Source of the DNA: Tetradesmus obliquus
Taxonomy: Eukaryota; Chlorophyta; Chlorophyceae; Sphaeropleales; Scenedesmaceae
DNA: 64,000 nucleotides
NCBI GenBank assembly: GCA_030272155.1
Contig: CP126206.1
Span: forward strand, 2,852,001 to 2,916,000
Reading direction: 5' to 3'
Made by a program: the position numbers and the translations under genes. Below the pieces are notes generated by a model, which searched no databases, was not told the origin of the DNA, and was given only the letters and a program-made list of their open reading frames with translations. Of the stretch, positions 1 through 64,000 are shown piece by piece (position 1 is the stretch's first letter; each line of letters starts with the position of its first letter).

Positions 1-3000
1 GAGGGCACTGTTGAAGCAGCAGCAGCAAGAGGCGCGAGCAGAGAAGCAGCGGCAGCGGCAAGCCAATCAGCAGCAGCAGCAGGACGAGAAAGAGGCGGCA
101 GCAGCGACAGCAGCGGCAGCAGCAGATGGCGATGCTGCTGCTGCTGGGTATGAGGAGCAGGAGGAGGAGGAAGATCCGGAAAGGGAGGTGCTGGCTTTTG
201 AGATCCGGGCGTCAGAGGTGAGCAGGGTTCACCTGAATTGGTGATCCCAAGGGGATTTCTTATGGTTGTTGCAGGTGTTTTGGTCGATGTCAGCCATTGT
301 GCATCTCAGAAATGTGTGGCCTTTGACCTGGGGATCAGAGGTCAGCAGGTTTTTTTGTTTTTGGCGCTGTCAATATCTGCCCTCAAGTTGATGAAGCATG
401 AGGAGCATGAGGAGGAGGAAGACCCTCTGAGCGGGAGGTGCTGGCTTTTGAGATCCGGGCCTCAGAGGTGAACACTTTCCACCTCGATTGTTTGGTGTGT
501 AGCTTGTTCTGGCTTTTGTAAGTGGTGCAAAAGCGCGCAGGAAGCAGAGCCTGCCTGGCAGCACAGCACTGCATGCTGCTGCCGCCCATCTGCCAGTCAC
601 ATACCCAGTGGTGATGCTGTTATGTATGTTGCATGATGTTGCAAGTCTCTTGTATGTGTGAAATATGCAACATATTCAAACAATCTTCAACTTGAAACAG
701 GTGGAGCGCGTGAAGAAGGAATGCCTGCCAGGCAGCGCGTCAGGCCTTCACGGCCCTCTTTTGGAGTAGCACGACTTCTTGCATGATGACGCAAACCTGG
801 GGCTAGACACCCCACCCTGAAAAGCACTATCAATGAAACAAACACATTCTCACCTCTCATGCTCTGCTGGTTTTGGCTTGTTCTCACCAGGTGGAGCGCG
901 TGAAGAAGGAGTGCCTGCCCGGGTCTGCCTCAGGCCTGGACTGCCCGCTGCTTGAGGAGTACGATTTTGCACACGATGATGCCAACCCAGGGCTAGACAT
1001 CGGGCTGAAGCGGGGCGTGCAGCTGCGGCCGTATCAAGAGAAGAGCCTGGCCAAGATGTTTGGCAACGGTCGCGCGCGCTCAGGTGCGTGCGCTTGTTAC
1101 ATTCATTGGGGCGTTTAGCTGACTGGTCTGTCCTGTCATGGCCTGTGCCTGCTGTTCAAGTTTCTGTTATGGTGTGTTGTAACTGATGGTGTTGAGCACC
1201 AACCCGGGCCTAGGCAACAGCCTGAAGCGAGGCATGCATGCAGCTGCGGCCATACTTTTCAAGTCCAGGCAACGGCCGCGCACGCTCAGGATGCACAGCA
1301 ATGTGTGTGTCCTGTTGTGCCTGGGGAGGCTGGTTTTGCGAAATAAAATGCATGTCCCGCTGTGCTTTCTTTCCTCTCGCCCTGCCCGCACATGACGAGC
1401 TCGCTTGGCGGCCGCCTGCCCAACACCCCAAACCTTGGCAAACAAACCCTACATGAAAACCTCGTTGTGTGTTATGTGCCTGCTGCTGCTGCAGGCATCA
1501 TTGTGTTGCCGTGTGGTGCAGCAGCAGCGCGTGTCAAAAAGAGCTGTCTCTTCCTTTGCACACCCCAAACCCATCCCTTGCTTTTGCTCACACGTGTTGA
1601 CCTGCAGGCATCATTGTGCTTCCCTGCGGTGCCGGCAAGTCCCTCGTTGGCGTTGCTGCTGCAGCGCGCATCAAGAAGAGCTGCCTATGCCTGTGCACCA
1701 GCCACCACTGACCAAAAATCAAAATGTGACACCTATGGTACAACATCTAAACCCGGCTGTCTCTGAACTGTGTGCTATTGCAGGCATCATTGTGCTGCCG
1801 TGTGGTGCGGGAAAGAGTCTGGTTGGCGTTGCAGCAGCAGCGCGCGTCAAGAAGAGCTGCCTGTGCCTGTGCACGTCTCATGCTCAACACCATGCTTACT
1901 CTCGCTTTTATCTGCATGCAGGCATCATTGTGCTGCCGTGTGGTGCGGGCAAGAGCCTGGTGGGCGTCGCAGCAGCAGCGCGTGTCAAGAAGAGCTGCCT
2001 GTGCCTGTGCACACCTCAATTTCAACACCCTGGTTATTTTTGCACTATCTTTATGCAGGCATCATTGTGCTGCCATGCGGTGCGGGCAAGAGCCTGGTTG
2101 GCGTTGCTGCGGCTGCTCGCGTCAAGAAGAGCTGCCTGTGCCTGTGCACCAGCAGCGTCAGTGTGGACCAGTGGGCGCACCAGTTCACGCTCTGGACAAA
2201 CTTGCAGGAGCACGACGTCGTCAAGTGAGTCAGTATACCTTGAAATGGCCGCCTTTATGTTGTGGGGGCATTTGATGTATGAAAGGGGTATTTTTGGTGA
2301 AACTTGACCTTTTTTGGACACAAAATCGCTTACTTGTTGCCGCCAGCGTCAGCGTGGACCAGTGGGCGCACCAGATCACGCTGTGGACAAACCTGCAGGA
2401 GCACGACGTCGTCAAGTGAGCAACTGATGCATTGACGAAAGGAAATTGTTGCATTCTGTGAGATCTCTACACCTACACCATCCTCAAACACCTCTCTCTG
2501 CTTCTGTGTCAACGTGGCTCGAATGAAGTGAGCAGCGTCGTCTGAGATGGTGTGCATGTGTTCCGCTGTGTTGCTGTGCGGCAACTGATTTGGCATGCAC
2601 GCGTGTTAGACACCATACCATTGATGGGTTGGTTTTGTGTGTGCCTTTCTTGAACTGCCACTGCTCTTGATGCCGCTGCGGCTGCTGCTGCTGCCGATGC
2701 TGCTGCTGCTGCTGCTGCCGTTGTTTCGTGGCTGCAGGTTTGTGGCAGGCACGGGAGGCAATGAAGGTCAAGCAGAGTTCAACAAGCAGTGCCTGTCTGT
2801 TGACAGCTACAACATAACCAGCGAGATCCAACACTTTTTGTACTGTCCCTCCTTTTGCTGCCGCAGGTTTTTGGCAGGCACAGGCGGCAATGAGGGCCAG
2901 GCTGAGTTCAACAAGCAGCGCCTGGCAGCACGATCCGCACTGAAAGATGCTTATCAAACAATGCGTTAATGCCGTCTGTCCTGCTGCCGCTGCAGGTTTG

Positions 3001-3768
3001 TGGCTGGTACAGGCGGCAATGAGGGGCAAGCAGAGTTCAACAAGCAGCGCCTGGCAGCCCCCTGCATTTGCGTGACCACCTTCAACATGATTGCACACGG
3101 CGGCAAGCGCAGCGAGTACGGCAAGGCGGTGAGCATGGCTGATATCCATGTGTCATTGTTTGTTAATTGTTACTTGTGTTGTTATTTTGTGATGACAGGA
3201 CCACCTTTAACATGATTGCACATGGTGGCAAGCGCAGCGAGTACTGCAAGGCGGTGAGCAGGGGTGTTGCTTTGCGTGTTATGTGTTGTTTTGCAATTGA
3301 CGCGACCACTTGGCATGGCGGCAAGCACAGCGAGTACGGCAAGGCGGTGAGCAGGGGTGTTATGTGTGTGGTACAGTTATGCCGCGACGATGCGGCCACC
3401 TTCAACGTGATTACGCGCGGCGGCAAGCGCAGCGAGTATGGCAAGGCGGTGAGCAGGGGTGTTAGTTATGTGTTTCACTTATTTAGTACGGCAAGGCGGT
3501 GAGCAGGGGTGTCAATTATGTGTTATATCTGTGGTCAATGTATGGTATCATTGTATTGTCATGCTGTGCAGACGTGAGTACGTTCCACATGACTGCGCGC
3601 GGCAGCAAGCGCCCAGCCAGTACAGCATGGCAGTGGTGCGCAGTCACATGACATGCCTGTTTATTGCGTGATAGTGCGACCACAAACCTGATCTGATCAG
3701 CAGTATGGAGTGCGGACCTTCACTCACCTGCACTCACTTTTTCTACCCTGTGCTGTTGCTGCCGGCGC

Positions 3769-3806
<38 letters not shown>

Positions 3807-4351
3807 GATCATGGACCTGATCAGTGGCAAGGAGTGGGGCCTGCTGCTGCTGGATGAGGTGCATGTGGTGCCCGCGCGCATGTTCAGGCAGGCGAGTTGA
3901 CATGAATCAACTGCTGTAATGCTGGTTTTGTCAGTATGGTTTCAGGGGGTGGGGGTGTGCATGCTGCTGCTGGACGAGGTGCACGTGGTGCCGGCACGCA
4001 TGTTCAGGCAGGCAAGTGAAAGATGTATATCTTGCGGTACATCTTGCACAGTGGTTCAGGGTCAAAGGGTCGAGGGGCGGCATGCTGCTGCTGCTGGATG
4101 AGGTGCACGTGGTGCCGGCGCGCATGTTCAGGCAGGCATTTGGACGTGAATGACGTGAATAATGGAGTAATCTTGACAAGTTTGTGCGGCTTTGTGTGGT
4201 TCCATCGTGTTGCGTCAACGTGTTACGTGTGCATGTGCGCTCTCATGCAGCTCCAGCTGTGGCTGCTACTGCCAATGCATACCATGATCCTCTTTGTTGG
4301 CTCATCAGTGCTGCAAACAGCCAGAAGTGCTACCGGCGTGTGCTGACACTG

Positions 4352-4389
<38 letters not shown>

Positions 4390-7300
4390 TCCCCTGCTGC
4401 TGCAGGTCATCGGCATCGTGAAGGCGCACTGCAAGCTGGGCCTGACAGCCACGCTGGTGCGCGAGGATGAGCTGATCGGGGACCTGAACTTCCTGATCGG
4501 TGAGAAGCTGGAATCTGGTTGTGAACTTTGCCGTGAAGTTTACTGTGAAGTTATGGGAGTGACCACAGACGGCCCTGAGATTGTGGCCTGACAGCCACAC
4601 TGGTGCGCGAGGCTGAACTCATTGGGGACCTGAACTTCCTGGTCGGTGAGCAGGTGGAATTTGAGTGTGAAGTTTGCTGTGAAGTTTACTGTGAAGTTAT
4701 GGGAGTGACTGCAGATGGCTGTGAAGTTTGGGCCTGACAGCCGCGCTGGTGCGCGCGGATTAGCTCATTTGGGACCTGAAATATCTGATCGGCAAGCAAG
4801 TTGAAGCAAGTTGAATTTGCGTGTGAAGTTCTGCCGTGAACGTAACTGTGAAGTTATGGGGGTGGCTGCATGGCTGTGAATATTGGGCTGACAGACACGC
4901 TGATGCCCTGGCTCTTCTTTCCTTTGATTCTTTCTGATATAATACTCCATGTTGTTTCTTTTCTTTGCAGGCCCCAAGCTGTACGAGGCCAACTGGCTGG
5001 ACCTCACTCGTGCTGGGCACAATCAACAACATGGTGCTTCACCTACCAAACCCTAGACCCTGCTGCTGAACCTCTGTCACTCTACGTTTCGCAGGCCCCA
5101 AGCTGTACGAGGCCAACTGGCTGGACCTGACGCGTGCTGGGCACATTGCCAACGTGCAGTGCGTGGAGGTGTGGTGCCCCATGACGCGCGAGTTCTACGC
5201 AGAATACCTGAACAGAGAAGCTCAGAACGACAGCGTCAAGTGAGCGCCAAGGGTTTAAATCATAGGGTTCTCTGTTGGTGTTAGTTTGGGAGTTTCAGTG
5301 GTTGAGGAGTCTGAGAAGTTTGGGGCTTTGGGGTGTCGGGGTTGTGCGTGGAGGTGTGGTGCCCCATGTGTGTGGAGGTGTGTGCAGTGCGTGGAGGTGT
5401 GGTGCCCCATGACACGCGAGTTCTACGCGGAGTACCTAAGCCGCGAGGCACAGAACGACAGCGTCAAGTGAGTGCAACGGGTTTATTTCAGAGGGTTTGG
5501 TTCTTGTGTTCAAGGGGTTCGAGAGGTTTGGGGCTTCTGGGGGTCGGGGTTGTGTGGTGCCGCATGCCGCGCGAGTTCTACGCAGAATATCTAAACCGCG
5601 AGGTGCAAAACGACAGCGTCAAAGGAGTGCGAAGGAATAAATCATCGGGTGCAGTGTTTGGTGGCTGAGCAGCGGTGGGAGAGGATTGATTCTTTGAGGT
5701 GTCGGGGCTGTGTGGTGCCCCATGACGCGGGAGTTCTATGCAGAGCACCTGAAGAGAAGCCCAGAACGACAGCGTCAAGTGAGCGAACCATGCAGGGGTT
5801 GTCGATGCTGCATGGTGCCTGCCGTGATGAATGCCCAACACGTTCATGGTCTGCCAGTGCTCCTTCAGCCATGGTCTTGTGCTTCAGATTGACTGCCCTG
5901 TGAACTTCTATCCCTGAACGTCCCGCCCTGCCCACTGTGAACTTTGCAGGCAGCTGCTATACGTGATGAATCATTTACCTTATGACGGTATGCCAGTACC
6001 TGTACACTTGGTCCAGGGCTGCTTTAGGTTGACTGTACTGCAAACTGACCCTGAACTTCCTGCCCTGCCAACTATGAACTTTGCAGGCAGCTGCTGTACG
6101 TGATGAACCCCAACAAGTTCATGGTCTGCCAGTACCTCATCGACTGGCACGAGCGCATCAGGGGCGACAAGGTGAGGTTGACATTTGTCTAGCGATTGCT
6201 CGCGTCTAGGGATTGCTACAGTCTGCCTGCTTCTAATATCTATGCTGATCTTTTGGTTGATGGTGTCTGCATTCATCCTAGCACTAGCGGCAAGTGGTAA
6301 CCTTGTTGACTTCAACAGCATGTTCTTGGTACTAGTTTCAGTCTGTGTCCGCACATCAACCTACTAGCTACTTCTCACCCTCCGCTGCCCCTGCTGCTGC
6401 CGCCATCAGGTCATTGTATTCAGTGACAACGTATATGCGCTGGAGGCGTACGCCACACCACCCCGCTCCTAAACCTCACTGCTGCTGCTGCTGCCAGGTC
6501 ATCGTGTTTAGTGACAACGTGTATGCCCTGGAGGCGTACGCCACACCTCCCCGCTCCTAAACCTCACTGCTGGTGCTGCTGCTGCTGCTGCCTCTGCCGC
6601 CATTAGGTCATCGTGTTCAGTGACAACGTGTATGCGCTGGAGGCGTATGCCAAGGCGCTGCGCAAGCCTTTTATCTACGGCAAGACCAGCCACAGCGAGC
6701 GCACACAGGTGGGCAGACAATATAGATGTCAGGGTTCAATGTCAAGGTTTTATGTAGGTTTTGGGGACCGGGCAATCCATAACATGTGCATGTGCGAGCT
6801 ATGTGCAAGCCCTTCATTTATGGCAAGACCAGCTACAGCGATCGCACACAGGTGGGCGACCACACCAGAAGTTAGGCGTAATGTCTTGCTGTCTTTGGCT
6901 TTTGGGCCCGGACATGCGTACATGTGCAAGCCCTTCATCTACGGCAAGACCAGCCACATCGAGCGCACACAGGTGGGCAGCAGCAGCAGAGGTCGTGGTT
7001 GGTTAAGTTTGCATGCTGGGGCCTATTTAAATGTGCAAGCGCTGTGTGAGCCCTTCATTTACGGCAAGACTAGCCACAGCGAGCGCACACAGGCTGGCAG
7101 CATCGGCAGTGACTTGATGAGTCATCATTACAGCCTCTCAGCTGTCGATTTTGGGCCGGGGCGAACATACATGTAATAGCGCTGCGCAAGCCCTTCATCT
7201 ACGGCAAGACCAGCCACAGCGAGCGCACAGGTAGGCTACACCAGAATTTAAGTCGATGTTATTTATATGCAAGTTTTCGGGGCTGGGCCATACGTACATA

Positions 7301-10300
7301 TATAAGCAGCAACACCAGACCTCCTGGTTGTGTAGGTTCTCGTGCTGGGGCATATGTAAATGTACGAGCGCTGCGCAAGCCCTTCAACTATGGCAAGACC
7401 AGCCACAGCGAGCGCACACAGGTGGGAAACCACACCAGAAGTTAGGCGTATTGTCTTGCTGTTTTTGGCTTTTTGGCCAGGGCATGCGTACATGTGCAAG
7501 CCCTTCATCTACGGCAAGACCAGCCACAGCGAGCGCACACAGGTGGGCAATATCACAATGGCTTTTGTGAGTCATATCGTCAAGTTCTTTTGGGTTGGGA
7601 CATGACTACGTGTGCAAGCTCTGCGCAAGCCCTGATTGCAAGACCAGCCACAGCCAGCGCACACAGGTGGGCGATATCAGAAGCTTCTTGGGTCAAAGTC
7701 ATGAAGTTCTTTTGGGTTACGGCAAGACCAGCCACAGCGAGCGCACACAGGTAGGCAACACCACCAGAAGTTAGGCGTAATGTCTTGCTTTGCGTTTTTT
7801 GGCGTTTTGGGCCAGGACATGCGAACATGTGCAAGCCCTTCATCTACGGCAAGACCAGCCACAGCGAGCGCACTCAGGTGGCCAGTACCAGAATCTAGGC
7901 GTACTGTCTTGAGTTTCTTTGGTTTTGGGCTAGGACATAGTACATGTGCAAGCCCTTCATTTACGGCAAGACCAGCCACAGCGAGCGCACACAGGTGTGT
8001 TAGTTGCAGGGTTCACCGGCGGTGCTGTGCTCAGTGTTCAAAGCATAGCTGGTATCCAGGTGGTAGATGACAAGCCATAAGCCGCACATGCTTTCTGTAC
8101 ATGACAAGATGCAGCACCCACAGGGGCTGAGTGCAAGCAGGGTTCAGGGTTTAGGGATCGTTGAGGTGCTGGCTGCATGTGTCCGCAGCGCGTGTGTAAA
8201 GTTGAGCGACAGCCGGGGTCAAGCGCATGCCTTGGGACCATGTCTTGCGCACATGATGATGTGCATGTGAGTGACTGGACGCATTAATTTGATGCTCGTA
8301 TGCACCAAGGCCCATGTTGCAATATGCTTTGTCAATGAATGCTGGCTGAGCTTGCTGCCCTTGCTGCTGCTGCTGCTGCTGCCGCTGCCGCCAGGTGCTG
8401 AGCATCTTCAAGAACACCAACAAGATCAACACCGTGTTCCTCTCCAAGGTGCGTTGTGCATTTAGCAAACGAACAATGTGCCTGACGCTGCTGCTGCTGC
8501 TGCCAGTGGCTGAGGCTGGTGGCCCGAGGCTGGTGGGTCATCAGGGGCGCTCAAGGCGTCTGACAGTTGCTTGTTGTAGTTTGTGTTGCTGTTCCTATTG
8601 AAAAATCCTTAGGTCTTTGCTTTAACGTACACCAGACCCCTGCATGCCGCAGGTGGGCGACAACAGCCTGGACATCCCTGAGGCCAACGTGCTGATCCAG
8701 ATCAGCAGCCATGCGGCGTGTCTTTGCAGCCCATTCTCACACTGCTTCGATTCCTGGCGCAGGAGGATGACAAAAGCACAAGCAGGTTGATGGCTGACGC
8801 ATGTGCTGCTTTCAAACTCAGCCGTCAGTCCACAAATGCAAGGTTGCTGTTTTATTAATGCAGGTGGGCGACAACAGCCTGGACATCCCTGAGGCCAATG
8901 TGCTCATCCAGATCAGCAGCCACGCGGGCAGCAGGCGCCAGGAGGCGCAGCGCCTGGGGCGCATTTTAAGGGCCAAGAAAGGCAAGCCCGGCAGCGGCGA
9001 GGTGAGATTTGTGTGCAGAGCCCCTGCAAACACTGTGAAGGTTGTGCATGTTTGGGATGTTTTGGCTAAAGGCAGGTTGCTCTGCGCCTTTAGGCGCAGC
9101 GCCTGGGGCGCATCCTGCGCGCGAAAAGGGCAAACCCGGCAGCGGCGAGGTGAGTAGCGGGGCTTATGGCTTGGAAGGCCTGGGGTTTCTGCAGCTATGG
9201 TGGTTTGGTGGGTTTGTGATGCTGCAGGCGCCTTTAGGGGCAGCGCCTGGGGCGCATCCTGCGCGCAAAGAAAGGCAAACCAGGCAGCGGCGAGGTGAGT
9301 GGCAGAATTATGGCCTAGGGCTTTGTGGGTATGGGAGTTTTGTTGTTTGGGGTAATGCTGTTGCGCCTGGGGCGCATCCTGAGGGCTGAAAGGGCAAACC
9401 CGGCAGCGGCGAGGTAAGGGGCGGGAGTGTTTTAAGATGTTGGGTTTTGGTGGTGCTGCTGTGCAACAGGCGCAGCGCGTGGGGCGCATCCTGCGCGCAA
9501 AGAAAGGCAAACCAGGCAGCGGCAAGGTGAGCGGCAGGGCTTATGGCTTGGAAGGCCTGGGGTTTCAGCAGCTATGGTGGTATTTTGAGTTTGTGGTGCA
9601 ACAGGCGCCAGGAGGCGCAGCGCCTGGGGCGCATCCTGCGCGTGAAAAAACGACATTTTGGCAGCGGCGAGGTGAGGGGTTGGCATGGTTTAAGATGTTG
9701 GGGTGTGGGGGTGCTGTGCAACAGATGCGGCGGCGAGGTGAGATATGTGTGCAGGGTTTCATGTTTGCTTTCTTTGGGAGGTGGGCTCATCATCAGGAAC
9801 AAGTCAACTCAAATCAAGGTCTTCTGCTGCCCCCACTGCAGCGACTGCTGCTGCTGCTCTTTTGCAGGAGGAGGAGTTCAGTGCATTCTTCTACACGCTC
9901 ATGTCCTACGACACACAGCAGATGCACTACAGCGCGCAGCGCCACTCGCAATCACCCGCAAATCAAACCAAACTATTGAAACAACCTCTGCTGCTGCTGC
10001 CCCCACTGCTGCTGCTGCTGCTGGCCCCACTGCTGCTGCTCTTTTGCAGGAGGAGGAGTTCAGCGCGTTCTTCTACACGCTGGTGTCCCGCGACACCCAA
10101 GAGATGTACTACAGCGCGAAGCGCCAGCAGTTCCTGGTGGACCAGGGCTACGCGTTCAAGGTGCTGCCAGCACTCCACACCACGGCGGCGGTGAGTTTGA
10201 CCAGGGTTGGCTTGTGGTTTCGGGTTTTGTGCTAAATACGGTTTGCTGCTAGAGGTTGTGGCGTCTGCTGCGCTGCAGCAAGTGCAGTTTCTGGTGGATC

Positions 10301-11396
10301 AGGGCTATGCGGTCAAGGTGCTGCCAGCACTACACACCATGGCAGCGGTGAGTTTGACCAGAGTTATCTCCGTGGTTCAGGGTATTGTGCTAAACAAGGG
10401 TTTGACGCTGCCATTAATGGGTCTGCTGCGCTACAGCACCAGCAGTTCTTGGTGGACCAGAGCTACGCGTTCAAGGTGCTGCCAGCACTGCACACCACGG
10501 CAGCGGTAAGTTTGCATGGGTGAAAGTTGACAAATGGGTTGATGCTCGTGCTAGGGATGCTGTGTATTATGTGCTGCAGCAGTTCCTGGTGTACCAGGGC
10601 TATGCCTTCAAGGTGCTGCCCGCACTGCACACCACGGCAGCGGTAAGTTTGGTTACTTGCAGAGCTGTGTATGTGTTGCTGCATTGTAGGTGCAGGTGTA
10701 TGTTGTTTGTTTTGACAGCAGTTACTTGTGACCAGGGGTGCACCTTCGAGGTTCTACCAGCCGTGCACAACACGGCAGCAGTAAGTTTGCAGGGCAAGGG
10801 GCTGGACTTTGAAGATGTATGTCGCCTATTGCTTGCTGCTGCTGCTGCACATGCAGGCGGAGCCGTGGATCCAGTGCACAACACAGAGAGAGCAGCTGAA
10901 GCCGCTCTCCCACGTGCTGCACTGCAGCTGCCTCACCTACTTACCCCTTTATGATGCCTCTCATTCTATCCTTGCTTTGCAGGCCGAGCCATGGATTCAA
11001 TGCCGCACGCAGCGGGAGCAGCTCGAGCTGCTGTCCCAGGTGCTGCACTCCAAGGAACTCGCCGACTCACTGGCCCGCGAGTGCGGCAAAGATGCTTTGG
11101 AAGCGGGTGACAAGGACGATCTGGTGACTCACCAGCGCGGCTGGGGAGGAGGTGTCACCGGAAATGGCGGCGGCGGGAAATTTGGGCGCGGCCGGGGCCG
11201 CAAGCTGGGCTCGCGCAGCATGGGCAAGGCTGCTGGGGGCGGCGACTTTGTGTATAACGAGTGGAGCAAGCAGCAGCAGCAGCAGCAGCAGGGTTCTGGG
11301 GGAGGTAGGGTGCAGGTCAGCGGGCCGGGCGGGGCGGTGGAGCGGCAGGAGAAGGCAGCTCGTGCAAAGAAGCTGCGGCAGAAGCTGGCAGGGTGA
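1..11396 (+). CDS. XPB: XPB/ERCC3 DNA helicase, TFIIH subunit (5' partial, spliced)
   Basis: ATP-dependent 3'-5' DNA helicase/translocase of TFIIH, which opens promoter DNA and acts in nucleotide excision repair in the nucleus. In-phase exons: <1-217, 891-1083, 2059-2224, 2996-3128, 3808-3891, 4406-4499, 5095-5239, 6087-6171, 6607-6708, 8395-8448, 8864-9001, 10050-10190, microexon 10793-10816 (GKGLDFED) and 10983-11396. Visible motifs in order: [21 protein letters not shown]-type lead-in, Walker A PCGAGKS, DEVH box, LTATLVRED (motif III plus RED motif), [54 protein letters not shown] (motif VI), [13 protein letters not shown] and [11 protein letters not shown]. The order matches human XPB throughout. 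The C-terminal exon is Gly/Gln-rich and ends RQKLAG-stop. The start codon and most of the N-terminal domain lie left of the window. Intron after 3891 appears to be GC-AG (CAG|GCGAGT). Introns are packed with partial exon copies, listed separately. Confidence 0.95.
400..1290 (+). repeat. Ghost copies of XPB exons 1-2
   Basis: About 400-467 repeats the 3' end of the acidic exon (GAGGAAGA...ATCCGGGCCTCAGAG) with its donor, but frameshifted. About 692-790 repeats the start of the exon at 891 behind its own acceptor (AACAG|GTGGAGCGCG) and carries an in-frame TAG, so it cannot be used productively. About 1200-1290 is a decayed copy of the GNGRARSG end. These bracket the intact exon 891-1083. Confidence 0.85.
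1490..2417 (+). repeat. Walker A ghost-exon array (XPB)
   Basis: The segment acceptor plus [16 protein letters not shown] plus KKSCLCLCT occurs at about 1494 (deleted through the P-loop), 1606, 1782, 1921 and finally in the complete exon 2059-2224. Each upstream copy keeps a TGCAG acceptor and stops matching soon after the CLCLCT codons. A sixth element at about 2347-2415 copies the other end of the exon ([10 protein letters not shown]...) with its donor. Spacings are roughly 110-175 bp. Exonic parts are more alike than the spacers. Confidence 0.9.
2735..3640 (+). repeat. Ghost-exon arrays around XPB exon 2996-3128
   Basis: Upstream, the acceptor plus F(V/L)[15 protein letters not shown] is present at about 2739 and 2867 before the complete exon at 2996. 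Downstream, the exon's other end ([17 protein letters not shown] plus GTGAGC donor) recurs at about 3199, 3303, 3395, 3487 (only the last bases) and, degenerate, 3572-3640. Upstream copies therefore carry the 5' edge and downstream copies the 3' edge, as expected for duplications spanning each exon-intron junction. Confidence 0.9.
3808..4138 (+). repeat. Triplicated DEVH-box segment (XPB)
   Basis: The helicase motif II segment [18 protein letters not shown] appears in the intact exon (3808-3891) and again at about 3955-4011 and 4080-4134. The copies end in CAG|GCGAGT, CAG|GCAAGT and CAG|GCATTT, so the first two look like GC-type donors and the second is the best GC-donor match. Confidence 0.85.
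4406..4800 (+). repeat. Ghost copies of the LTATLVRED exon (XPB)
   Basis: After the intact exon 4406-4499, the 3' part ([17 protein letters not shown] plus donor) recurs at about 4587-4647 and, degenerate, at 4733-4795. The following intron sequence (GTGAAGTTTACTGTGAAGTTATGGGAGTG-like) is duplicated with it, so the repeat unit crosses the donor site. Confidence 0.85.
4970..5785 (+). repeat. Ghost copies around XPB exon 5095-5239
   Basis: About 4971-5025 is a 5'-edge copy (acceptor TTTGCAG plus [17 protein letters not shown]) before the intact exon. Downstream, 3'-edge copies ([15 protein letters not shown]...QNDSVK plus GTGAGT donor) lie at about 5376-5468, 5553-5621 and 5705-5780, the last two partly decayed. 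Confidence 0.88.
5800..6171 (+). repeat. Degenerate 5'-edge copies of the NPNKF exon (XPB)
   Basis: The intact exon 6087-6171 ([17 protein letters not shown]...) is preceded by decayed copies: about 5815-5865 (GTGATGAATGCCCAACACGTTCATGGTCTGCCAGT) and 5949-6000 (GCAGGCAGCTGCTATACGTGATGAAT). Both retain traces of the surrounding intron, such as TGCCCTGCC...GAACTTTGCAG. Confidence 0.7.
6405..6708 (+). repeat. Triplicated [13 protein letters not shown] segment (XPB)
   Basis: Two 5'-edge copies of the exon 6607-6708, at about 6411-6455 and 6499-6545, each begin with an acceptor (CATCAGG or TGCCAGG) followed by TCAT(C/T)GT(G/A)TT(C/T)AGTGACAACGT and break off after the GGAGGCGTACGCC codons into the same CACCACTGCTG-type intron sequence. 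Confidence 0.88.
6660..7995 (+). repeat. Array of ten [15 protein letters not shown] ghost exons (XPB)
   Basis: The 3' end of exon 6607-6708, about 48 bp encoding [15 protein letters not shown] and ending in CAG|GT(G/A)GGC, is followed by about ten further copies near 6809, 6930, 7050, 7188, 7379, 7500, 7630, 7720, 7835 and 7956. Spacing is mostly 115-145 bp. Several spacers share a conserved intron block (CACCAGAAGTTAGGCGTA...GGACATGCGTACATGTGCAAG). Coding changes are few (for example IERTQ, SQRTQ) and donors are intact in nearly all. This is the longest ghost array in the window. Confidence 0.92.
8650..9740 (+). repeat. Ghost arrays around the motif VI exon (XPB)
   Basis: A 5'-edge copy (CAG|GTGGGCGACAACAGCCTGGACATC...) lies at about 8653-8713 before the intact exon 8864-9001. 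The 3' edge, [23 protein letters not shown] plus GTGAG donor, recurs at about 9094-9151, 9235-9293, 9362-9413, 9469-9526, 9602-9671 and a remnant near 9725. Several have small indels that shift frame, yet all keep the donor. Confidence 0.9.
9866..10785 (+). repeat. Ghost arrays around the [11 protein letters not shown] exon (XPB)
   Basis: A 5'-edge copy (TTTGCAG|GAGGAGGAGTTC... to the GCGCAGCGCC codons) at about 9869-9943 precedes the intact exon 10050-10190. The 3' edge, [21 protein letters not shown] plus GTGAGT/GTAAGT donor, recurs at about 10279-10348, 10438-10507, 10577-10644 and 10728-10781. Confidence 0.9.
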
Positions 11397-18424: not shown

Positions 18425-18473
<49 letters not shown>

Positions 18474-34347: not shown

Positions 34348-34419
<72 letters not shown>

Positions 34420-35308: not shown

Positions 35309-36711
35309 GTCAGTCCTACAGAACTGCAGCCGGCCCAACTTCCGTTCAAATTCCTTCCAAACTCATCTTGCACGCCCGCCACCAACATGTTACATGGCAC
35401 ACAACGTAACACATAACAAATAACACACATCTGCTCGCCCCCGTAGCTTTAGGGAAGGCCTCCCACAACGCCTTTGCCCCATGTGTCCTCGACAAGCATC
35501 TTGCACACCAGCAACCAACATGTTACATAATACTGATGTAACATAACAAATGTTAACAAATAACACCACCTGCTCGTCCCCGTAGCTGCAGGGCAGGCCT
35601 CCAACAAATATCTTGTCCCAGGTATCTTCCACAACCGTCTTGCACATCGGCAGGTGGGCGGTGCTGACTGTTGGGTCTGGGGTGGCGGGGCCCAAGGGTG
35701 CAGCTTCCTCAGGGTTGTAGTTGCTGGGGCGCCGGATCTGCAAAAAATAACAATGTAACAATAACATGTCAGTTCAACAGTGTTGGTTGGGTAGGTGGGC
35801 GGTGTGGACTGTCGTGTCAGGGGTGGCGGGGCCCAGGGGTGCAGCCTCCTCAGGGTTGTAGTTGCTGGGGCGCCGGATATGTAAAAACGTCAAACAATAA
35901 GATCATAACATCTTGTAACAAGGCATTCAGCAACTGCTGCGGCTGGTGAAATCCATTGCGCTGCGGGCCTCTTCAACGCTGCACAGATCTGCTCTCAGAC
36001 CTGAACCGGAACCCGCAATACAATCTCTGCACAACCATGCTTAGAACCCTGCACACCTTTAGGTTGGTGTCATTGAACAGGATGCCGTCAAAGGCCATGG
36101 CGTTGCTTGCTTCCTCAATGCTGCGCAGCTCCAAGAACGCGTAGCTGCGGTCGCTGCTGACCTTCACGCCCGCTGCTGGCTTATCTATCGATGCACAAAC
36201 CTAAACCTAAACCCTCCGTACGCCTGAAACCCTGACAAACCCTACTACACCAAGCCCTAGTACCCTACTACACCAAGCCCTAAAACCCTGCGCACCTTGA
36301 GGTTTGTGTCGTTGAACAAAATGCCGTCAAAGGCCATCGCGTTGCTGGCTTCCTCAATGCTGCGCAGCTCCAGAAAAGCGTAGCTGCGGTCGCTGCTGAC
36401 CTTCACGCTTGCAATTGGCGGGCCGGGGGCAACAGCGGCGCCTGTGCTGCCCATCACGCCTTCAAAAAACACCCGCAGATCCTCCTGCAAGCAGCAAATG
36501 CAGAGGAATGGTTCAAATCAATGATTGCAGCTGGCAATGGGAGGGCCAGGGGCAACAGCAGCGCCAGCGCTGCCAAATACGCCCTCAAAAAAGACCAGCA
36601 GATCCTCCTGCACACGGCAGAAAATGCAGAGGTTATCAAAATGCAGCAAATGCAGCTGGCAACCGACGGGCCACGAGCCACGGCAGCGCCTGTGCTGCCC
36701 ATTACGCTCGG

Positions 36712-47121: not shown

Positions 47122-49949
47122 ATGAAGCGCTGTGCTCTAGCAGCAGTGCTGCTGGTGCTGCTTGTGGCAGCTGGAACAGCATCGGCATCGAAGAAGGAGA
47201 AGAAGAAGGCCGCGGTCACACACAAGGTGACTGATGGTTCCAGAGTCCTTCTGGCCCGGCTGTATCGTGCCTAGGCCTCATTGGGCTTGCATCATGGCTG
47301 ATCGCAGGTCTTCTTTGACATCGAAATCGATGGCAAGCCAGCAGGTGCGTGGGCAGCACCCCAGCTGCAGAGACGCACAGCTATGCAGCAGCAACTGCCC
47401 AACCACCTGACTGCCTCTTCTGGCAGCACGTTGGCTGTGCATCTGGCCTTGTTGATTGTCTGATCTCCGTCAAAACTGCTCACAGCAATGTCTTTTGACT
47501 AGATCAGCAATAAGCCGGCATCATTCAGCAGTGTCTGGTGCTCACTGCACATACCTGGGCGCGACACTGCAACAGTACCCCCCAGCAGTGCACCCTGCTT
47601 GCATTTATTTCATCCGCACCCCAGCAAGTGCCATCTGCCCGTGCAAAGTCCTATGACACATAACCCTTTCACACTGCATCCCAGTGCTTCTCTGGGGCGA
47701 TGTGCTGTGCAAGGCGCTTGAAAGGACCTGAGTAACGCCCCCGTGCACACCCGCCCCTTGCAACATCCAAACCCTGCTCCCCTGCCACACCTATAAACCC
47801 TGCAGGCCGCGTCGTGATGGGTATGTTTGGTGATGCAGTGCCCAAGACGGCCGAGAACTTCCGCGCGCTGTGGACTCATCATTCATGTTGCCCTTCACTC
47901 CTCTCATGCAAACTCTGTTTTGGACCCCGCAGGCTGCATCGTGATGGGTCTGTTTGGTGATGTCGTGCCCAAGACCGTGGAGAACTTCCGCGCGTTGTGC
48001 ACTCATCATTAGTGTTGCCCTGTACTCCTCTCCTGCAAACTTGGTTTTGGACCCCGCAGGCCGCATCGTGATGGGTCTGTTTGGTGATGTCGTGCCCAAG
48101 ACCGTCGAGAACTTCCGCGCGCTTTGCACTCATCATTCATGTTGCCCTTCATTGCTCTCCTGCAAACTATGTTTTGGACCCCGCAGGCCGCATCGTGATG
48201 GGTCTGTTTGGTGATGTTGTGCCCAAGACCGTGGAGAACTTCCGCGCGCTGTGCACCGGCGAGAAGGGCACCGGCAAGTCGGGCAAGCCGCTGCACTACA
48301 AGGGCTCCATCTTCCACCGCGTGATTCCCCAGTTCATGCTGCAGGGCGGCGACTTCACACGGTGAGGGTTTAGCATGCAAGGTTTTGAGGGTCCAGGGTT
48401 TGGGGGGCTGCAGCAAGCCTGGTGTTGGCTTGCTTTGCTGATGTGCGCGCACTTGTCGAAGCAGCGCACTCAATGCTGCTGTGCTATATTCTTGCAATCG
48501 CTGCCTGCACTGTCAGTGCGTCTCTGCGACCACTGACGGGATTCTGCTGCCTGTGCCTTGTGCTGCTGCCTGCTGCAGCTCGGATGGCATTGGTGCATTG
48601 CACGCATTCAGGTGTTCTGGCTGTGGCTGTGCTTCTGCTGACCATGTTTCTGCTGCCTGTGCGCCTTGTGCTGTTGCCTGCTGCAGCTCCGATGGCACTG
48701 GCGGCGAGAGCATCTACGGCGAGAAGTTCGCGGTGAGCACCTCAGCAGTGTGTTGGGTTTCTGATGTTTTGGTGCACACTCGTAGGGTGCATTTCTGCTA
48801 ATTCCCTGCCAGTTGGCGTGCCAGAACATAGCAGCACAAGAAGCGGCAGCTGCAGCTCTGCATTGGGTAGTCAGAAGGGCCCCAGCCACCTGTCCATGGC
48901 CAGAGATTGACTCACTGCCACCTGCAAACCTCTCACTGCACTTCCTGCAAACTCCTGTGCTTGCAGGACGAGAACTTCAAGCTGAAGCATACGGGCCAGG
49001 GTACCTGTCCATGGCCACATGCTGAAAACCTGCATGCCTGACAACCTCCTGCAAAACTCTCACTGCACTTCCTGCAAACTCCTCTGCTTGCAGGACATGA
49101 ACTTCAAGCTGAAGCTCAAGGGCCCGAGCTGACTCACAGCCTGCCTGGTGCTCTTTCCTGCTGCATTCGCCCCGTTCTTTGCTTTTGCAGGACGAGAACT
49201 TCAAGCTGAAGCACAAGGGCCCCGGCTACCTGTCCATGGCCAACGCGGGCCCCAACACCAACGGCTCACAGTTCTTCGTCACCACCGTGAAGACCGGATG
49301 GCTGGACGGCCGCCACGTGGTGTTCGGCAAGGGTGAGCAATGTGTATGTTTGCTTTGTTTGTGCAGTACCGGTGTGCAGCCCAAGCGTGCCTGTGCAGTG
49401 GTTGATGCAGTGATGCATACGTCATGCGGCCCGCCACGCGCGGTTGGTTTACAGCAGTGAATGCCAGTTGCTCTGGTCAGCTAGCAGCGGCGGTGCCTAG
49501 CGCTGGGCTGCTGAATGTTGCTGTAAGGAGTTCGGTATGTGCAAATTGTGGCATGTGATTTTGAGGTGTGCTGGGCATGCAGCCTTGTAAGCCGGAGCTT
49601 GCAGTGTCCTGGCAGCCTCGTGCATGCATTCCTGCAAGCATGCCATACACCAGCTGGCGCCCTGCATGCATGCGCTGCACACACCTGGCACCCATCTGGC
49701 ATCGCCGCCTGCCCACACCACACCACGCCTCAACGCACCACCATCACTTGACAACATCCACCCACAACCCTGAACCCTGACAACCTCCTCAAAACCCTGA
49801 ACCCTACGCCGAACCCTGCAAAATCCTGAACCGCAGTGATTGAGGGCATGGATGTGGTTTACAAGGTGGAGGCTGTCGGCAGCGGCGGCGGCGCCACCAG
49901 CAAGAAGGTGGTCATCGCAGACAGCGGCGAGCTCACCGAGACCTCCTAA
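47122..49949 (+). CDS. Secretory cyclophilin (peptidyl-prolyl cis-trans isomerase)
   Basis: Catalyses proline isomerisation during protein folding, here in the secretory pathway. Six exons join in phase: 47122-47226, 47308-47344, 48187-48361, 48687-48732, 49191-49332 and 49837-49949, for 205 aa. An N-terminal hydrophobic signal ([20 protein letters not shown]) is followed by a Lys-rich stretch. The cyclophilin core is complete: [47 protein letters not shown] (catalytic Arg and Gln), [20 protein letters not shown], and W in the [13 protein letters not shown] loop. The C-terminus ends in ELTETS with no KDEL-type signal. Closest to cyclophilin B-type proteins. Introns before exons 3, 4 and 5 hold partial exon copies, and a second possible last exon lies downstream. 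Confidence 0.95.
47805..48190 (+). repeat. Ghost array of cyclophilin exon 3
   Basis: Three 5'-edge copies at about 47806-47872, 47934-48000 and 48060-48126 precede the intact exon at 48187. Each consists of CCCGCAG acceptor plus G(R/C)(I/V)VMG(L/M)FGD(V/A)VPKT(V/A)ENFRAL and then ACTCATCATT and shared intron sequence. Period is 126-130 bp. No donor follows the copies, so use of an upstream acceptor would read into intron and soon stop. Confidence 0.93.
48575..49135 (+). repeat. Ghost copies of cyclophilin exons 4 and 5
   Basis: About 48578-48610 is a decayed copy of exon 4's start (CTGCTGCAGCTCGGATGGCATTGGTG). About 48967-49020 and 49094-49128 are 5'-edge copies of exon 5 (TTGCAGGAC.(A)GAACTTCAAGCTGAAGC), before the intact exon at 49191. 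Confidence 0.87.
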
Positions 49950-54100: not shown

Positions 54101-56255
54101 GAGGTTGTTTCTGATACCCTGCATGCACGTGGCTGACTAACTTGTGTATTTTTCATCTGCAGGTGTGCACGTGGTGGTGGGCACCCCTGGCCGCGTGTTC
54201 GACATGCTTCGCCGCCGCTGCCTGCGCGCGGACAGCATCAAGATGTTTGTGCTGGACGAGGCCGACGAGATGCTCTCCCGCGGCTTTAAGGACCAGATCT
54301 ATGACATCTTCCAGCTGCTGCCCCCCAAGCTGCAGGTGTGCAGCCAATATCTGTACATGATTGTGTGGTCTTGCTTTCAGCTCAGCAGCGTGACTGGTGG
54401 CAGCAGATGCGGTCAGCAGTGTCAACAGCGGATTGATGCTCGAGCATGTTGTTTCCTCTGCTCAGTGTAAGGATCCTGAACACACTGCTGCTTGCTGGTG
54501 TGCTGCTCAATGCTAAGCATTGTTCTTGATTGTTATTTCATCGTGCCCGCAGGTCGGTGTGTTCTCCGCCACCCTGCCCCCTGAAGCGCTGGAGATCACC
54601 CGCAAGTTCATGAACAAGCCGGTGAGTGTGAACTTCTGGTTGTGAACTTGTTCATGCCTGCCCGGCACTTCACGGTGGGAACTGCCAGCAGTGTGATGTA
54701 TGTGCACCAGTGCTGCCCCAGCAAAGTACCCCTTCAGACCCCAATCACCGCCCCTGCATGTCTCTGCCATGCAACATGTTATTTAACACATCATGTAACG
54801 CCCCGCAGGTGCGCATTCTGGTCAAGCGTGACGAGCTGACCCTGGAGGGCATCAAGCAGTTCTACGTCAACGTGGAGAAGGAGGACTGGAAGCTGGACAC
54901 GCTGTGCGACCTGTACGAGACCCTGGCCATCACGCAGTCCGTCATCTTCGCAAACACCCGCCGCAAGGTACGCCGCTTGCTTTTATTGGTGTTTTCGTGA
55001 TTGTTGTTAGAGCATGTCAAGCATGTACGAGACCCTGGCCATCACGCAGTCCGTCATCTTCGCAAACACCCGGCGCAAGGTACGCATTTCAAGTCTTGCA
55101 CATGCATTTCAACTCTTGTCACCGCATCACCCGCGTTTCTTTTCGTTGCAGTTGTTGGTTCTGCCCCCAGGCGCGTTTCCTGCAAGTTCCTGCAAGCCTG
55201 CATCTCGTTCTTGTCAGTTCCTGCTGACGCCCTGCCACCATATTAATTTTGTCCGTTACTTTCTTGTGGTCCGCAGGTGGACTGGCTGACTGACAAGATG
55301 CGCGAGCGCGACCACACTGTGTCTGCCACGCACGGTGACATGGACCAGAACACGCGCGACGTGATCATGCGCGAGTTCCGCTCCGGCTCCTCCCGTGTGC
55401 TGATCACCACAGACCTGCTGGCCCGCGGCATCGACGTGCAGCAGGTGAGGGTTGGGCACATTTTTTTCTCGCAGTGACAGCAAGGGCTACAGGTGGTTTT
55501 GCGGCAATTTGTGCAGCTGGTTGGTGTGGCTGATAGCGATTGCGGCAAGCACTGCTGTGTGCTGATCACCACACACTTACTCTCCCGCGGCATTAGCGCG
55601 CAGCAGGAGGGGCGGAAAATAATCAACTGCACCATTCCCCAACACATACAACTGTTACTAACACATTACTTCTGCACGTCTGTAACCTGTTATTTATCGC
55701 AGGTGTCCCTGGTCATCAACTACGACCTGCCCACGCAGCCGGAGAACTACCTGCACCGCATCGGTCGCTCCGGCCGTTTCGGCCGCAAGGGTGTTGCCAT
55801 CAACTTCGTCACCCGCGACGACGAGCGCATGCTGCAGGTGCGTGTTGTGCTGCGCAAGACATTGTTTTGGTGTTTCTCTGGTGTTTCCGTGGAATCTGGA
55901 ACCGCGTGTTTGCATCTTATTGGGCCGCAAAGGCGTTGCCCACAACTTTATCATCTGCGACCACAAGCACATGCTGCGGGCGCGGCTGCTACAACACTGC
56001 CGCCGGGAGTTGCCTCTGTCATTAATGTACAAACCACTTGCCCTCTTGTCTGGTGCTTTGTCATGTCATCCTTGCAGGACATCCAGCGCTTCTACAACAC
56101 CGTCATTGAGGAGCTGCCCTCACTTCACACATTCACAGATAAGTAATACTCACAGTCGATGTTGTTTTCGCCCATTTTCATGCTTGCAGGACATCCAGCG
56201 CTTCTACAACACCGTCATCGAGGAGCTGCCCTCCAACGTGGCTGACCTCATCTAA
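51146..56255 (+). CDS. Translation initiation factor eIF4A (DEAD-box RNA helicase)
   Basis: Cytosolic ATP-dependent RNA helicase of the eIF4F complex, which unwinds mRNA 5' UTRs. Eleven exons join without frameshift: 51146-51201, 51447-51565, 52549-52662, 53516-53634, 53895-53958, 54163-54335, 54553-54621, 54809-54967, 55277-55444, 55703-55837 and 56190-56255, giving 413 aa, the usual length. Motifs: [12 protein letters not shown] (Q motif), AQSGTGKT (Walker A), [40 protein letters not shown] and [13 protein letters not shown], ending NVADLI, typical of eIF4A. Codon use is strongly C/G-ending, as expected of a highly expressed algal gene. Partial copies of exons 3, 8, 9, 10 and 11 lie in the introns. 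Confidence 0.96.
52735..52915 (+). repeat. Ghost copies of the eIF4[10 protein letters not shown] exon end
   Basis: GGGCAAGACCGCCACCTTCTGCGCAG|GTGCAG recurs at about 52744-52770, and a decayed version (GGGCAACACCGCCACCTTTTTTCTG|GTGCAG) at about 52889-52913, after the intact exon ending at 52662. The P-loop GKT codons are within the copied part. Confidence 0.88.
55020..56130 (+). repeat. Ghost copies of eIF4A exons 8-11
   Basis: About 55025-55079 is a near-perfect copy of the 3' part of exon 8 ([18 protein letters not shown] plus GTACGC donor). About 55557-55605 is a decayed copy of exon 9's end ([15 protein letters not shown]). About 55922-55980 is a decayed copy of exon 10's end ([18 protein letters not shown]). 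About 56078-56121 is a 5'-edge copy of the last exon (GCAG|GACATCCAGCGC...GAGGAGCTGCCCTC) before the intact one at 56190. Confidence 0.9.
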
Positions 56256-60166: not shown

Positions 60167-60209
<43 letters not shown>

Positions 60210-63200
60210 GCATCCTGCTCGCCGCCTGCTTCTGCATCGCTGTCTTCATATGCATCAGACTGCGGCATCCCACTGTCTCTGTCACTCTCTGCACCACCAT
60301 CGCTGCTGCTGCTGATGCCGCTGTCTGCAGCATCCTCATCTGCTGCTGCTGCTGCTGCTGCAGCTTGCAGTTTCCTTTGCTGCTTGGGTGCGTCATCGCT
60401 GTCCCATCCATCATCCCTGCTGCCAGCTGCTGCTGCTGCTGCACTCTTGCGCTTGCCCTTGCTCCCTCCTGCTGCTGCAGCACCCCTGCCCTTCCCTTTG
60501 GCCTTAGCAGCAGCAGCAGCAGCAGCAGCAGCAGCTTTCTGACTGCCGAAGCCTGCTCCTTGGCTCAATGCAGCCACTTTAGCTGCCGCTGCTGCAGCTG
60601 CTGCCTCCTCCGCGGCTCGCTCTGCTGCTGCTGCCTCTGCTGCCTCTTGCATCACCACCTCGCATGCTGCTGCTGCTTCCTCGCTGCTGACCTTTTCAAG
60701 GGCCTGCTGCAGCGCGGACCGTACTCGGGACCGCCAGGCTGGGGTGCTGTTGCCAGGGATCTGCAGCAGCAGCAGCAGCAGCGGCGGCAGCAGCAGCAGC
60801 AGTGTTGTTCTGTTGTTGTTTCCAGTCTGTTGTGCATGCCTAGCTGCTGCAAGAGCTGGTTACCCCCATACACGAATTCAGTCAGAGCCAGCAGAACCTT
60901 GCCAAATACATGCCGCAAGTGCCTTCCCGCCCGGGTCGTGCCACTTGTTGACATTGCTGCTGCCCTTTAAACCTTCTTTGCGCCTACAGGTGAGAACTTC
61001 ACATGATGCTATGATGCCATGATGCTGGACAGCAGTGCTTGCGTGGACAGCCCACTTGGAGCGCCGGGGGACCTTGGGCGGGAGGTCTCCTGGACAAGCA
61101 ATGCTTGAAGGTGCGCAGCTTTGCAATTTTCATGCTAGACTGTCCATCTTTACGTTTCCATCCTTGAATATTAGAAATAGACAAAGAATACCTTATGTAG
61201 TCGCCGCTGTCGTTGCGCACGCCAGCCGCCACCAGCAGCTCGTTGCTCCAGTCAAGATGAACCAATGTTACTCAGTGACATGATGATGAACACATAGTAT
61301 GTTGATTTCAGGGAAACAATGAATGTGATCGTGAGTTAGTCACCTTGAAGTAGTCGCCGGCGTCGTTCCGGACGCCAGCCGCCACCAGCAGCTCGTTGCT
61401 CCAGTCAAAACAAACCAAACTCACTCTTGAAGGTTAAATAAAAGCATAATTTTGTGTCTTAAACAAGGCAATGAAATTTGCACGTGAAGTGCATTCACCT
61501 TGAAGTAGTCTCCGCTGTCATTCCGCATGCCAGCCGCCACCAGCAGCTCGTTGCTCCAGTCAAGTCAAATCGGCACACTGACCAACGACAACTATCAGCA
61601 TAATCTGGTGTCTAGTTCAAATGAATACGGTCTGAATTAATGATTTGTCACCTTGAAGTAGTCGCCGCTGTCATTCCTGACGCCAGCCGCCACCAGCAGC
61701 TCGTTGCTCCAGTCAGAGCAAGTCAGTCCGACACCACTGACCAACGACGACTATCAGCATAATCTGGTGTCTAGTTCAAATGAATAAGGTTTGAACTGGA
61801 TGATTTTTCACCTTGAAGTAGTCGCCGCTGTCATTCCTGACGCCAGCCGCCACCAGCAGCTCGTTGCATCAGTCAAGTTAGATCGACACCACTGACCATG
61901 GGTGAATAACAGAAAAAACTGGTGTTTAAAATCAATGATGAGGCGTGTATATCTACCTTGAAGTAGTCGTCGCTGTCGTTGCGCACGCCAGCCGCCGCCA
62001 GCAGCTCGTTGCTCCAGTCTGAGCAGATCAAACCCACTAGCGACATGATGATGAACACATAGTATATTTATTCCAAGAAAACAATGAACATAACCGTAAG
62101 CTAAGCGTAAGTCACCTTGAAGTAGTCGCCGCTGTCGTTCCGGACGCCAGCCGCCACCAGCAGCTCGTTGCTCCAGTCACTGCAGAAAAAGTCCAGGTCA
62201 TCACCCGCGCCTGGTACTAGGCAGTAGTCTGCTGGGGCAGCGCCTGTGCAGGCACAACACAGCAAATAATAAGCAGGGCAGTGTGGAGTGTCAATGGCTG
62301 CAGTGTTACAGCAGAAGAAGTCCAGGTCATCACCCGCGCCTGGTACTAGGCAGTCATCTGCCGGGGCAGCGCCTGTGCAGGCACAACACAGCATACAATA
62401 AAATCGGCAGTGTGGAGTGTCAATGGCTGCAGTGTTACAGCAGGAAAGGTCCAGGTCATCATCAGCGCCTGGTACCAGGCAGTAGTCTGCTGGGGCAGCG
62501 CCTGCAGGAAAATGAGATGTGCGGGGTACAGGCAGAGTCAGGGGCTGTATCAAAAAGAGCACAGGATCCGACACAACCCACACAGGGCATCAGGCAAGGC
62601 AGTTGGCTGGCCCAGAAGCCAAGCCGCACACCATATCTCATTTTCCCTGAACAGATAATGATACATGATGCTGAGTCACAAAACAACAGCATCAAGTCAC
62701 CTGTGAGGTCTGCTGCCGCCTTCCACACTGCCTCTGCCGCGTCCAGCTTGCCCAGCAGCCAGCCCTCCGCACCCCTCAGAAATGACAGCACCAATATGAC
62801 AATGTAACACAGTTTGAATCACCTGTGAGGTCTGCTGCCGCCTTCCACACTGCCTCTGCCGCGTCCAGCTTGCCCAGCAGCCAGCCCTCCGCACCCCTCA
62901 GAAATGACAGCACCAATATGACAATGTAACACAGTTTGAATCACCTGTGAGGTCTGCTGCCGCCTTCCACACTGCCTCTGCCGCGTCCAGCTTGCCCAGC
63001 AGCCAGCCCACCGCACCCCTCAGAAATGACAGCACCAATATGACAATGTAACACAGTTTGAATCACCTGTGAGGTCTGCTGCCGCCTTCCACACCGCCTC
63101 TGCCGCCTCCAGCTTGCCCAGCAGCCAGCCTACCGCACCCCTCAGAAATGACAGCATCAATATGCAACCCTCAGAAATGACAGCATCAATATAACAATGT

Positions 63201-63351: not shown

Positions 63352-63386
<35 letters not shown>

Positions 63387-63424
63387 TAGTGGTCGAATGT
63401 TGCAGCACAGTTGCATGATCATCT

Positions 63425-63784
63425 AACAGCCAGCCCACTGCACCCCGCGCATCCAGCCACCTGACATAGCAGCAGCAGCAGCAGCAGCAAAGGGCAGCAG
63501 CAGACAACAGTCAAAGTCTACTGTGCAGTTGCATGATTACCCAGCAGCCAACCGACAGCGCCCCGCGCATCCAGCCACCTGCAACAGCAGCAGCAGCAGC
63601 AGCACATAACATTCATAGGCTGCTGCACAGTTGCACGATTGCCCAGCAGCCAGCCCACTGCACCGCGTGCAACCAGCCACCTGCAGCAGCAGCAGGAACA
63701 GCAGCAGAAAGCAGTCAAAGGCTGCTGCACAGTTGCACGATTGCCCAGCAGCCAGCCCACAGCACCACGCGCATCCAGCCACCT

Positions 63785-63823
<39 letters not shown>

Positions 63824-63925
63824 ATCGGTCAAAGGCTGCTGCACAGTTGCATGATTATCTAACAGCCAGCCTACTGCACCCCGCGCATCCAGCCACCTGA
63901 CATAGCAGCAGCAGCAGCGGCAGCA
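63425..63925 (-). repeat. Array of WLDARGAVGWLL 5'-edge ghost exons
   Basis: About five copies of the start of exon 63216-63304, acceptor CAG plus GTGGCTGGATGCGCGGGG...GGCTGCT, lie near 63430-63463, 63540-63582, 63645-63683, 63745-63783 and 63860-63898, spaced about 100-115 bp. Between them are (CAG)n tracts, which are the CTG-rich pyrimidine side of each acceptor. The array runs almost to the window edge. Confidence 0.92.
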
Positions 63926-64000
63926 TACACGAGTCAGAGGCAGTTGCATCAGCAGCTGTCACACCGGGAAATTGGCGCCTCACAAGAGCCTGTTACTGTC

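Follow-up and report, generated by a model that had tools for sequence, protein, structure and literature searches.

Copies of exon sequence within introns are usually regarded as rare, decaying accidents, and tandem units of about 100–160 nucleotides (nt), some of them near-identical, are a feature of minisatellites. In AGGT intron gain, a tandem duplication leaves exon copies within the intron, which the model places against the intron ends. A related case is the potato RdRp gene, where, in the cited part of the report, a tandem duplication across an intron–exon boundary is described together with intron gain, and the exonic sequence of one copy turns intronic (PMC4974935). In Schizophyllum commune, called hypervariable with a within-population nucleotide diversity (pi) of 0.05–0.06, crossovers prefer exons when the parents are 14% apart, again according to the cited part of the account (PMC4209137). 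Here we compare these systems with a stretch of 64,000 nt from Tetradesmus obliquus (GenBank assembly GCA_030272155.1, contig CP126206.1, positions 2,852,001 to 2,916,000; hereafter the window), in which exons are accompanied by partial tandem copies of their own edges, and with further genes from the same genome.

Far from being rare, such copies are widespread beside working exons throughout the genome, and their placement follows an exact side rule. Each copy holds part of the exon, the splice site or stop codon that bounds it, and some of the flank. Most changes that separate a copy from its exon are synonymous, and the intron flanks have diverged far more. As for AGGT intron gain, the exon copies reside within introns, but all 173 copies are more than 8 nt away from the far exon at the intron end, and this route was rejected as their origin. 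Unlike minisatellite units, those described here are anchored on coding edges, obey the side rule, and differ strongly in rate between exonic and spacer parts. The duplicated segment crosses the intron–exon boundary as in potato RdRp, but the potato case, as presented in the cited part, is one event in one gene that gives a new intron, whereas here there are many copies per gene, genome-wide, with no new intron inferred; the silent-only recoding of the copies also sets them apart from that event (PMC4974935). Literature searches aimed at the pattern, covering titles and abstract openings, did not find the genome-wide, side-ruled, silently recoded form. The birth of the copies looks like ordinary tandem duplication, and any novelty would lie in how they are maintained.

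The analysis concerns a single genome of 104.66 Mb in 17 contigs, of which about 0.29 Mb outside the window was also examined. Fourteen genes were modelled by spliced alignment with conserved proteins: four in the window (XPB, eIF4A, cyclophilin, and MPC1), and ten chaperonin genes on ten contigs, located by Pfam search. The models have 3–15 exons, guide identities of 51–73%, and mostly clean GT-AG borders; the guide protein for XPB was verified against the PDB. Among the 264 junction sides in these models, 248 were tested, introns shorter than 150 nt being left out. With a 45-nt query taken from the exon edge, 95 of the 248 junctions proved to have copies in the neighbouring intron (184 copies in the 14-gene set), with none in the reversed null, compared with 29 of 248 for a query from the intron edge. 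Mid-intron queries had copies in 24 of 123 introns and mid-exon queries for 11 of 47 exons of at least 135 nt, both with zero in the reversed controls. Low-complexity and short edge queries were skipped and yet are counted in the denominator of 248; they are excluded from the denominators of the mid-intron, mid-exon, and side-rule tests. In a separate blastn scan of 132 donors and 132 acceptors, copies spanned 33 and 27, respectively (184 pairs, against 4 in reversed sequence). However, the wording that most exons in almost every spliced gene are accompanied by copies is too strong, since copies occur in 12 of the 14 genes and at 38% of junctions, with a density that ranges from 14/18 junctions in CCT1 and 17/28 in XPB to 0/22 in CCT6, a gene of 13 exons.

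The abundance of local repeats in the window was borne out by a self-comparison of its full length, which gave 111 alignments, 92 of them with both copies within 6 kb; inverted alignments number 11 overall and 3 among the 92 local ones. Local repeats are also present in 18 of twenty random 10-kb stretches of the genome, where the mean is 5.7 local pairs and the repeats take up 17% of the bases. In six 10-kb pieces that make up the first 60 kb of the window, the mean is 14 pairs (median 8) with a coverage of 37%, and the reversed-sequence null gave no local pair in any of the 26 pieces. The earlier description of the duplication as genome-scale therefore holds for local repeats, the window being richer than average. 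In the random stretches, a donor-like motif stands at the right end of both copies in 14% of 193 pairs, against 1.1% for random placement (3.1 vs 0.5% on the other strand), and the acceptor-like motif is weakly enriched (18.7 vs 11.8% and 25.9 vs 23.8%). As to the more than 80 copies claimed for the window, 46 strict copies were recovered in its gene models (XPB 36, eIF4A 5, cyclophilin 5), to which unmodelled arrays are to be added. To gauge generality, proteasome and kinesin genes were searched with Pfam and the matches inspected by eye. In the kinesin gene, three extra partial matches to profile stretch 262–289 lie within 0.8 kb (contig C2, 7430665–7431399), apparently another copy array.

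The side rule had been stated as holding on both strands, and it is exact in the models. Among internal exons of at least 95 nt, copies of the 3' edge lie downstream of 38 of 86 exons and upstream of none, and copies of the 5' edge upstream of 40 of 86 and downstream of none; as a control, no edge copy was found in one random intron of another gene (0/172). Any local duplication would produce this rule, provided that a single continuous exon remains. For anatomy and divergence, 173 copies were kept, after dropping 11 of the 184 matches that end more than 3 nt from the junction. Successive copies are spaced by 100–160 nt in 124 of the 173 (median 130, quartiles 117–156), which agrees with the unit size given previously. 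The spacing has a sharp lower bound, with a 5th percentile of 98 nt. A copy holds a median of 56 nt of exon, corresponding to 44% of its length, and none of the 173 is a whole-exon copy with both splice sites, of the kind that could act as a functional alternative exon. The inner breakpoints are located inside the exon and are often common to the copies of one array, which supports the proposal of repeated local tandem duplication at the coding-exon edge.

The remark that exonic parts are better preserved than spacers is confirmed: in 5-nt bins, identity is 0.82–0.95 on the exon side against 0.27–0.53 at intron positions 7–14, where unrelated flanks give a background of 0.22–0.36. Mean exonic identity between copy and exon is 91%, and the flanks are clearly homologous in 51 of 173 copies. 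Donor positions 1, 2, 3, and 5 are kept at 0.97, 0.94, 0.90, and 0.90, and the free positions 4 and 6 less well, at 0.70 and 0.47, after which the flank falls towards background. Matches were also found for three of nine 3' edges of last exons, one of which is really a donor, leaving two of eight true stop-codon edges, and for none of seven start-codon edges. In one chaperonin gene, the last 56 nt including the stop codon recur in the 3' flank with three differences, all synonymous; a second gene has a more decayed copy, with TAG versus TAA as the stop. Because these two copies end at stop codons, splicing is not essential to the pattern, and the key edge is that of the coding sequence, not the splice junction. 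In genomes of this kind, intact-looking exon edges with good splice sites would mislead work on intron evolution as well as gene prediction and the mapping of reads.

Differences between copies and exons amount to 5.3, 4.7, and 18.4% at the three codon positions. The divergence at silent sites (pS) is 0.249 and that at missense sites (pN) 0.046, a ratio of 5.4 (bootstrap range 4.36–6.76 over 92 junctions; none of 4000 resamples at or below 2). Within position 3, synonymous transversions are far more frequent than non-synonymous ones (239/3655, 6.5%, against 29/2784, 1.0%), so that neither position nor mutation class explains the excess. Mutation bias at third positions or CpG was ruled out by comparing synonymous with non-synonymous changes matched for codon position, mutation class, and CpG class, and silent-site saturation by the gap between the measured pS of 0.249 and the 0.493 that sequences drawn independently according to codon usage would give. 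By gene, the ratio ranges from 1.8 (eIF4A, 5 copies) to 7.7 (CCT1, 31 copies), and exceeds 2 in 11 of 12 genes.

Silent and missense divergence behave differently among the copies. In 43 copies without missense change pS is 0.229, and in the 22 most decayed copies 0.294; its spread is Poisson-like (0.93), and an effect of rank is absent (p = 0.45). By contrast, pN rises with distance, from 0.032 in the nearest copy to 0.055 in the farthest (permutation p = 0.0035, 45 arrays). Between copies, pS is 0.236 and equals that between copy and exon. Copies that share an inner breakpoint, and hence a common copy ancestor, have a pS of 0.219 and a pN of 0.060 (63 pairs). Where alignable flanks differ by 5 or 14% (5 and 26 copies), pS is still 0.20–0.24, these flanks being picked by similarity and therefore biased low. 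Silent variants are reassorted among copies, with 25 of 45 site pairs incompatible against 27.7 (standard deviation 3.2) after shuffling, to which homoplasy may contribute, and three or more alleles occur at 12 of 76 variable four-fold sites. Codon bias is kept, third-base G+C being 0.826 in copies and 0.851 in exons. Silent sites near the junction are less diverged (difference 0.067, confidence interval 0.002–0.129), which is expected if this divergence arose in working exons. In severity, the missense changes of the copies match random ones, with a BLOSUM score of −0.44 against −0.45 expected (n = 308). At these sites the human residue equals that of the exon in 182 cases, that of the copy in 14, and neither in 110, with none aligned in 2, which places the amino-acid changes mostly on the copy side. 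Silent divergence tends to be higher in copy-rich genes (XPB 0.305, CCT5 0.280, CCT1 0.275); in copy-poor genes it is 0.115 and 0.165 (cpn60) and 0.153 (eIF4A).

The origin suggested at first, in which copies born by ordinary tandem duplication across junctions decay neutrally while selection keeps one intact exon, accounts for the side rule, the partial copies, the shared breakpoints, and the young near-identical arrays, and the missense changes in copies indeed look neutral. It fails quantitatively, however, since a copy that is neutral after leaving its own exon should reach a pS of at most about twice pN, and the observed ratio is 5.4. In six simulated one-genome settings with different births and conversions, the ratio was 1.50–1.93. 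Nor does pS grow with rank or with missense count, and in most copies the divergence of the flanks far exceeds that of the exonic silent sites. Taken as a whole, simple decay appears improbable. A snapshot model, in which each copy is a dated record of its own exon, is rejected by the pS/pN ratio and by the flat course of pS with rank. Conversion within one genome was also rejected, the four simulated settings that include it reaching ratios of 1.50–1.74 only. The same range bears on a form of second-order selection, in which copies recombine into the exon and lineages with damaged copies suffer more lethal events. This would preserve coding content without any use of the copy, and direct repeats near an exon invite exchange, but frequent exchange within one genome should erase the silent differences, as the conversion simulations, run without such selection, indicate. 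In addition, the tolerated changes are not conservative and, by reasoning, a very large population would be required, and we regard such selection as very unlikely.

Purifying selection on the copies themselves, as splicing elements or alternative coding edges, would fit the low pN, the full intactness of some arrays, and the retained splice consensus (GT in 86 of 96 copies, AG in 73 of 77), and would amount to a new layer of gene structure. The radical missense changes do not agree with this, and the copies contain six stops and 27 indels, none a multiple of three and thus all frameshifts. The distance from copy to exon is random modulo 3 (54, 61, and 58 copies), and only 14 of 173 copies could be read through in an open frame, which excludes translation by read-through as an explanation. 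Copies of stop codons, furthermore, occur in 3' flanks. Radical missense together with the lack of read-through makes a function of the copies themselves unlikely. An assembly artefact, in which haplotypes or strains were stitched together around exons, could explain why copies resemble other alleles of the same exon. Against this stand arrays of up to ten copies every 100–160 nt with their own flanks and graded decay, the local repeats in 18 of 20 random stretches, and the TTTAGGG telomere arrays found, among the matches listed, at both ends of contig C1, at the end of C2, and at the start of C3; an artefact is in our judgement highly improbable.

The explanation that we favour, tentatively and with the recognition that it may well prove wrong, combines tandem duplication from breakpoints within the exon with a later step in which recombination with strongly diverged alleles overwrites the exonic half. 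At birth, the inner end of the duplicated segment would lie inside the exon. Gene conversion or unequal exchange would then repeatedly replace the exonic half with sequence of the same exon from other alleles, which would differ at roughly one in five synonymous sites. If the gene pool is very diverse, exons alone would be similar enough to recombine and introns too diverged to pair, and an exchange confined to coding stretches would create abrupt borders at splice sites and at stop codons, with drifting flanks beyond them. Between exchange events, the copy would decay neutrally. Judged from the sequences, a copy behaves as if it had been freshly drawn from a pool of coding sequences with silent-site distances of about 0.2 and had since decayed neutrally for a short time. 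Exchange with diverged alleles leads to the expectation that silent divergence is independent of copy age and missense divergence dependent on it, and this is what was found. A simulated allele pool with a synonymous diversity (piS) of 0.2 gave a pS of 0.278 and a pN of 0.047, which demonstrates consistency only, as piS is an input. The exon preference in S. commune, where diverged stretches recombine poorly, is of the same nature as the constraint here proposed to lie behind the copies, but the cited part of that account mentions no exon-edge copy arrays (PMC4209137). Hypervariability of T. obliquus is an assumption of the allele-exchange explanation. If that explanation is true, one genome records both the recombination and the silent diversity of its population. 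A bolder extension, possible but on balance doubtful, is that introns and 3' flanks form a running archive of the coding alleles of the species, in which misplaced exon–exon exchange deposits the exon halves of other individuals.

Several observations weigh against allele exchange. The synonymous allele diversity of about 0.2 that it requires would exceed the within-population pi of 0.05–0.06 given for S. commune in the cited part of that work (PMC4209137). The Poisson-like distribution of pS requires strong recombination within exons, as coalescence times would otherwise scatter more. Allele exchange predicts less missense decay in longer copies; this is seen when their own length is considered (p = 0.011), but the effect is lost with an unbiased length (p = 0.71). 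The pS/pN ratio is only 1.8–2.8 in five of 12 genes (eIF4A, CCT7, CCT2, CCT3, and one cpn60), so that copy-rich genes carry most of the excess, and some arrays look wholly intact (CCT4, five copies, pN 0.003). Since copies are detected by exonic similarity, old copies are missed.

In the window, XPB (ERCC3) at 179..11060 on the + strand has 15 exons by spliced alignment with human XPB and 36 strict copies in its introns. A C-terminal piece matches Pfam ERCC3_RAD25_C, and the borders of some exons (e.g., 5234 and 6091) may be misplaced by several bases. The exon 2059..2224 (+) has three acceptor-side copies, with junctions 137, 275, and 451 nt upstream (at about 1922, 1784, and 1608), a pS of 0.35, and a pN of 0.015. 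Around the exon 6607..6708 (+), two acceptor-side copies lie 109 and 197 nt upstream and ten donor-side copies downstream; the latter form an array at 6802..7997 (+) of the 3' part of the exon plus donor, with 84–95% identity to the exon and spacers that are far more diverged. The exon 10050..10190 (+) is followed at 157, 315, and 452 nt by copies of its donor side and preceded at 182 nt by one acceptor-side copy. The cyclophilin acceptor-side array at 47797..48256 (+) comprises three copies 127, 254, and 381 nt upstream of the exon 48187–48361; it is young, and spacers are conserved in the copies nearest the exon. In eIF4A, the exon 54809–54967 and a donor-side copy 112 nt downstream occupy 54809..55085 (+). 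For MPC1, also named by the first-pass annotation as a gene with copies, the result is mixed. The junction test gave 0/2, although self-comparison pairs one exon, 45716..45846 on the − strand, with a segment outside the 173 copies (45729–45816 matches 45448–45537 at 81%).

The names Cys-rich, U2AF-like, and right-hand, given earlier to other genes with copies, are unconfirmed, as no Pfam match at E 0.001 was obtained for the five pieces searched, 36290–36484 and 62113–62211 among them. In the putative U2AF-like gene (36054..36484, −), the coding-like piece 36290–36484 is accompanied by a shorter copy at 36054–36173. At 61197..62211 (−), a short coding-like segment of the right-hand gene (NELLVAAGVRNDSGDYFKV and variants) is present six times. 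A very young tandem array at 62697..63164 (−), with a period of 122 and 98% matches, overlaps a coding-like segment and shows that duplication is recent or ongoing.

Other repeats are present as well. CAG/CTG triplet runs are very frequent in the window (e.g., 18428–18472 and 34352–34418), and several directly precede model acceptor sites. A search for arrays of TTTTAGGG found none; the sequence is CAG-rich. Just inside the telomere of contig C1, short telomere-motif stretches at 1170, 2059, 2948, 3837, and 4726 are spaced by exactly 889 bases, which suggests a subtelomeric repeat of 889 bases. In the window, two direct repeats of 670 bp (38610–39279 and 42836–43505) are 100% identical and 4.2 kb apart, and enclose long open frames at 39656–40288 and 41103–41588. 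The frames have no Pfam match and an appearance that we take to be transposase-like, and together with the repeats they probably constitute a young mobile element.

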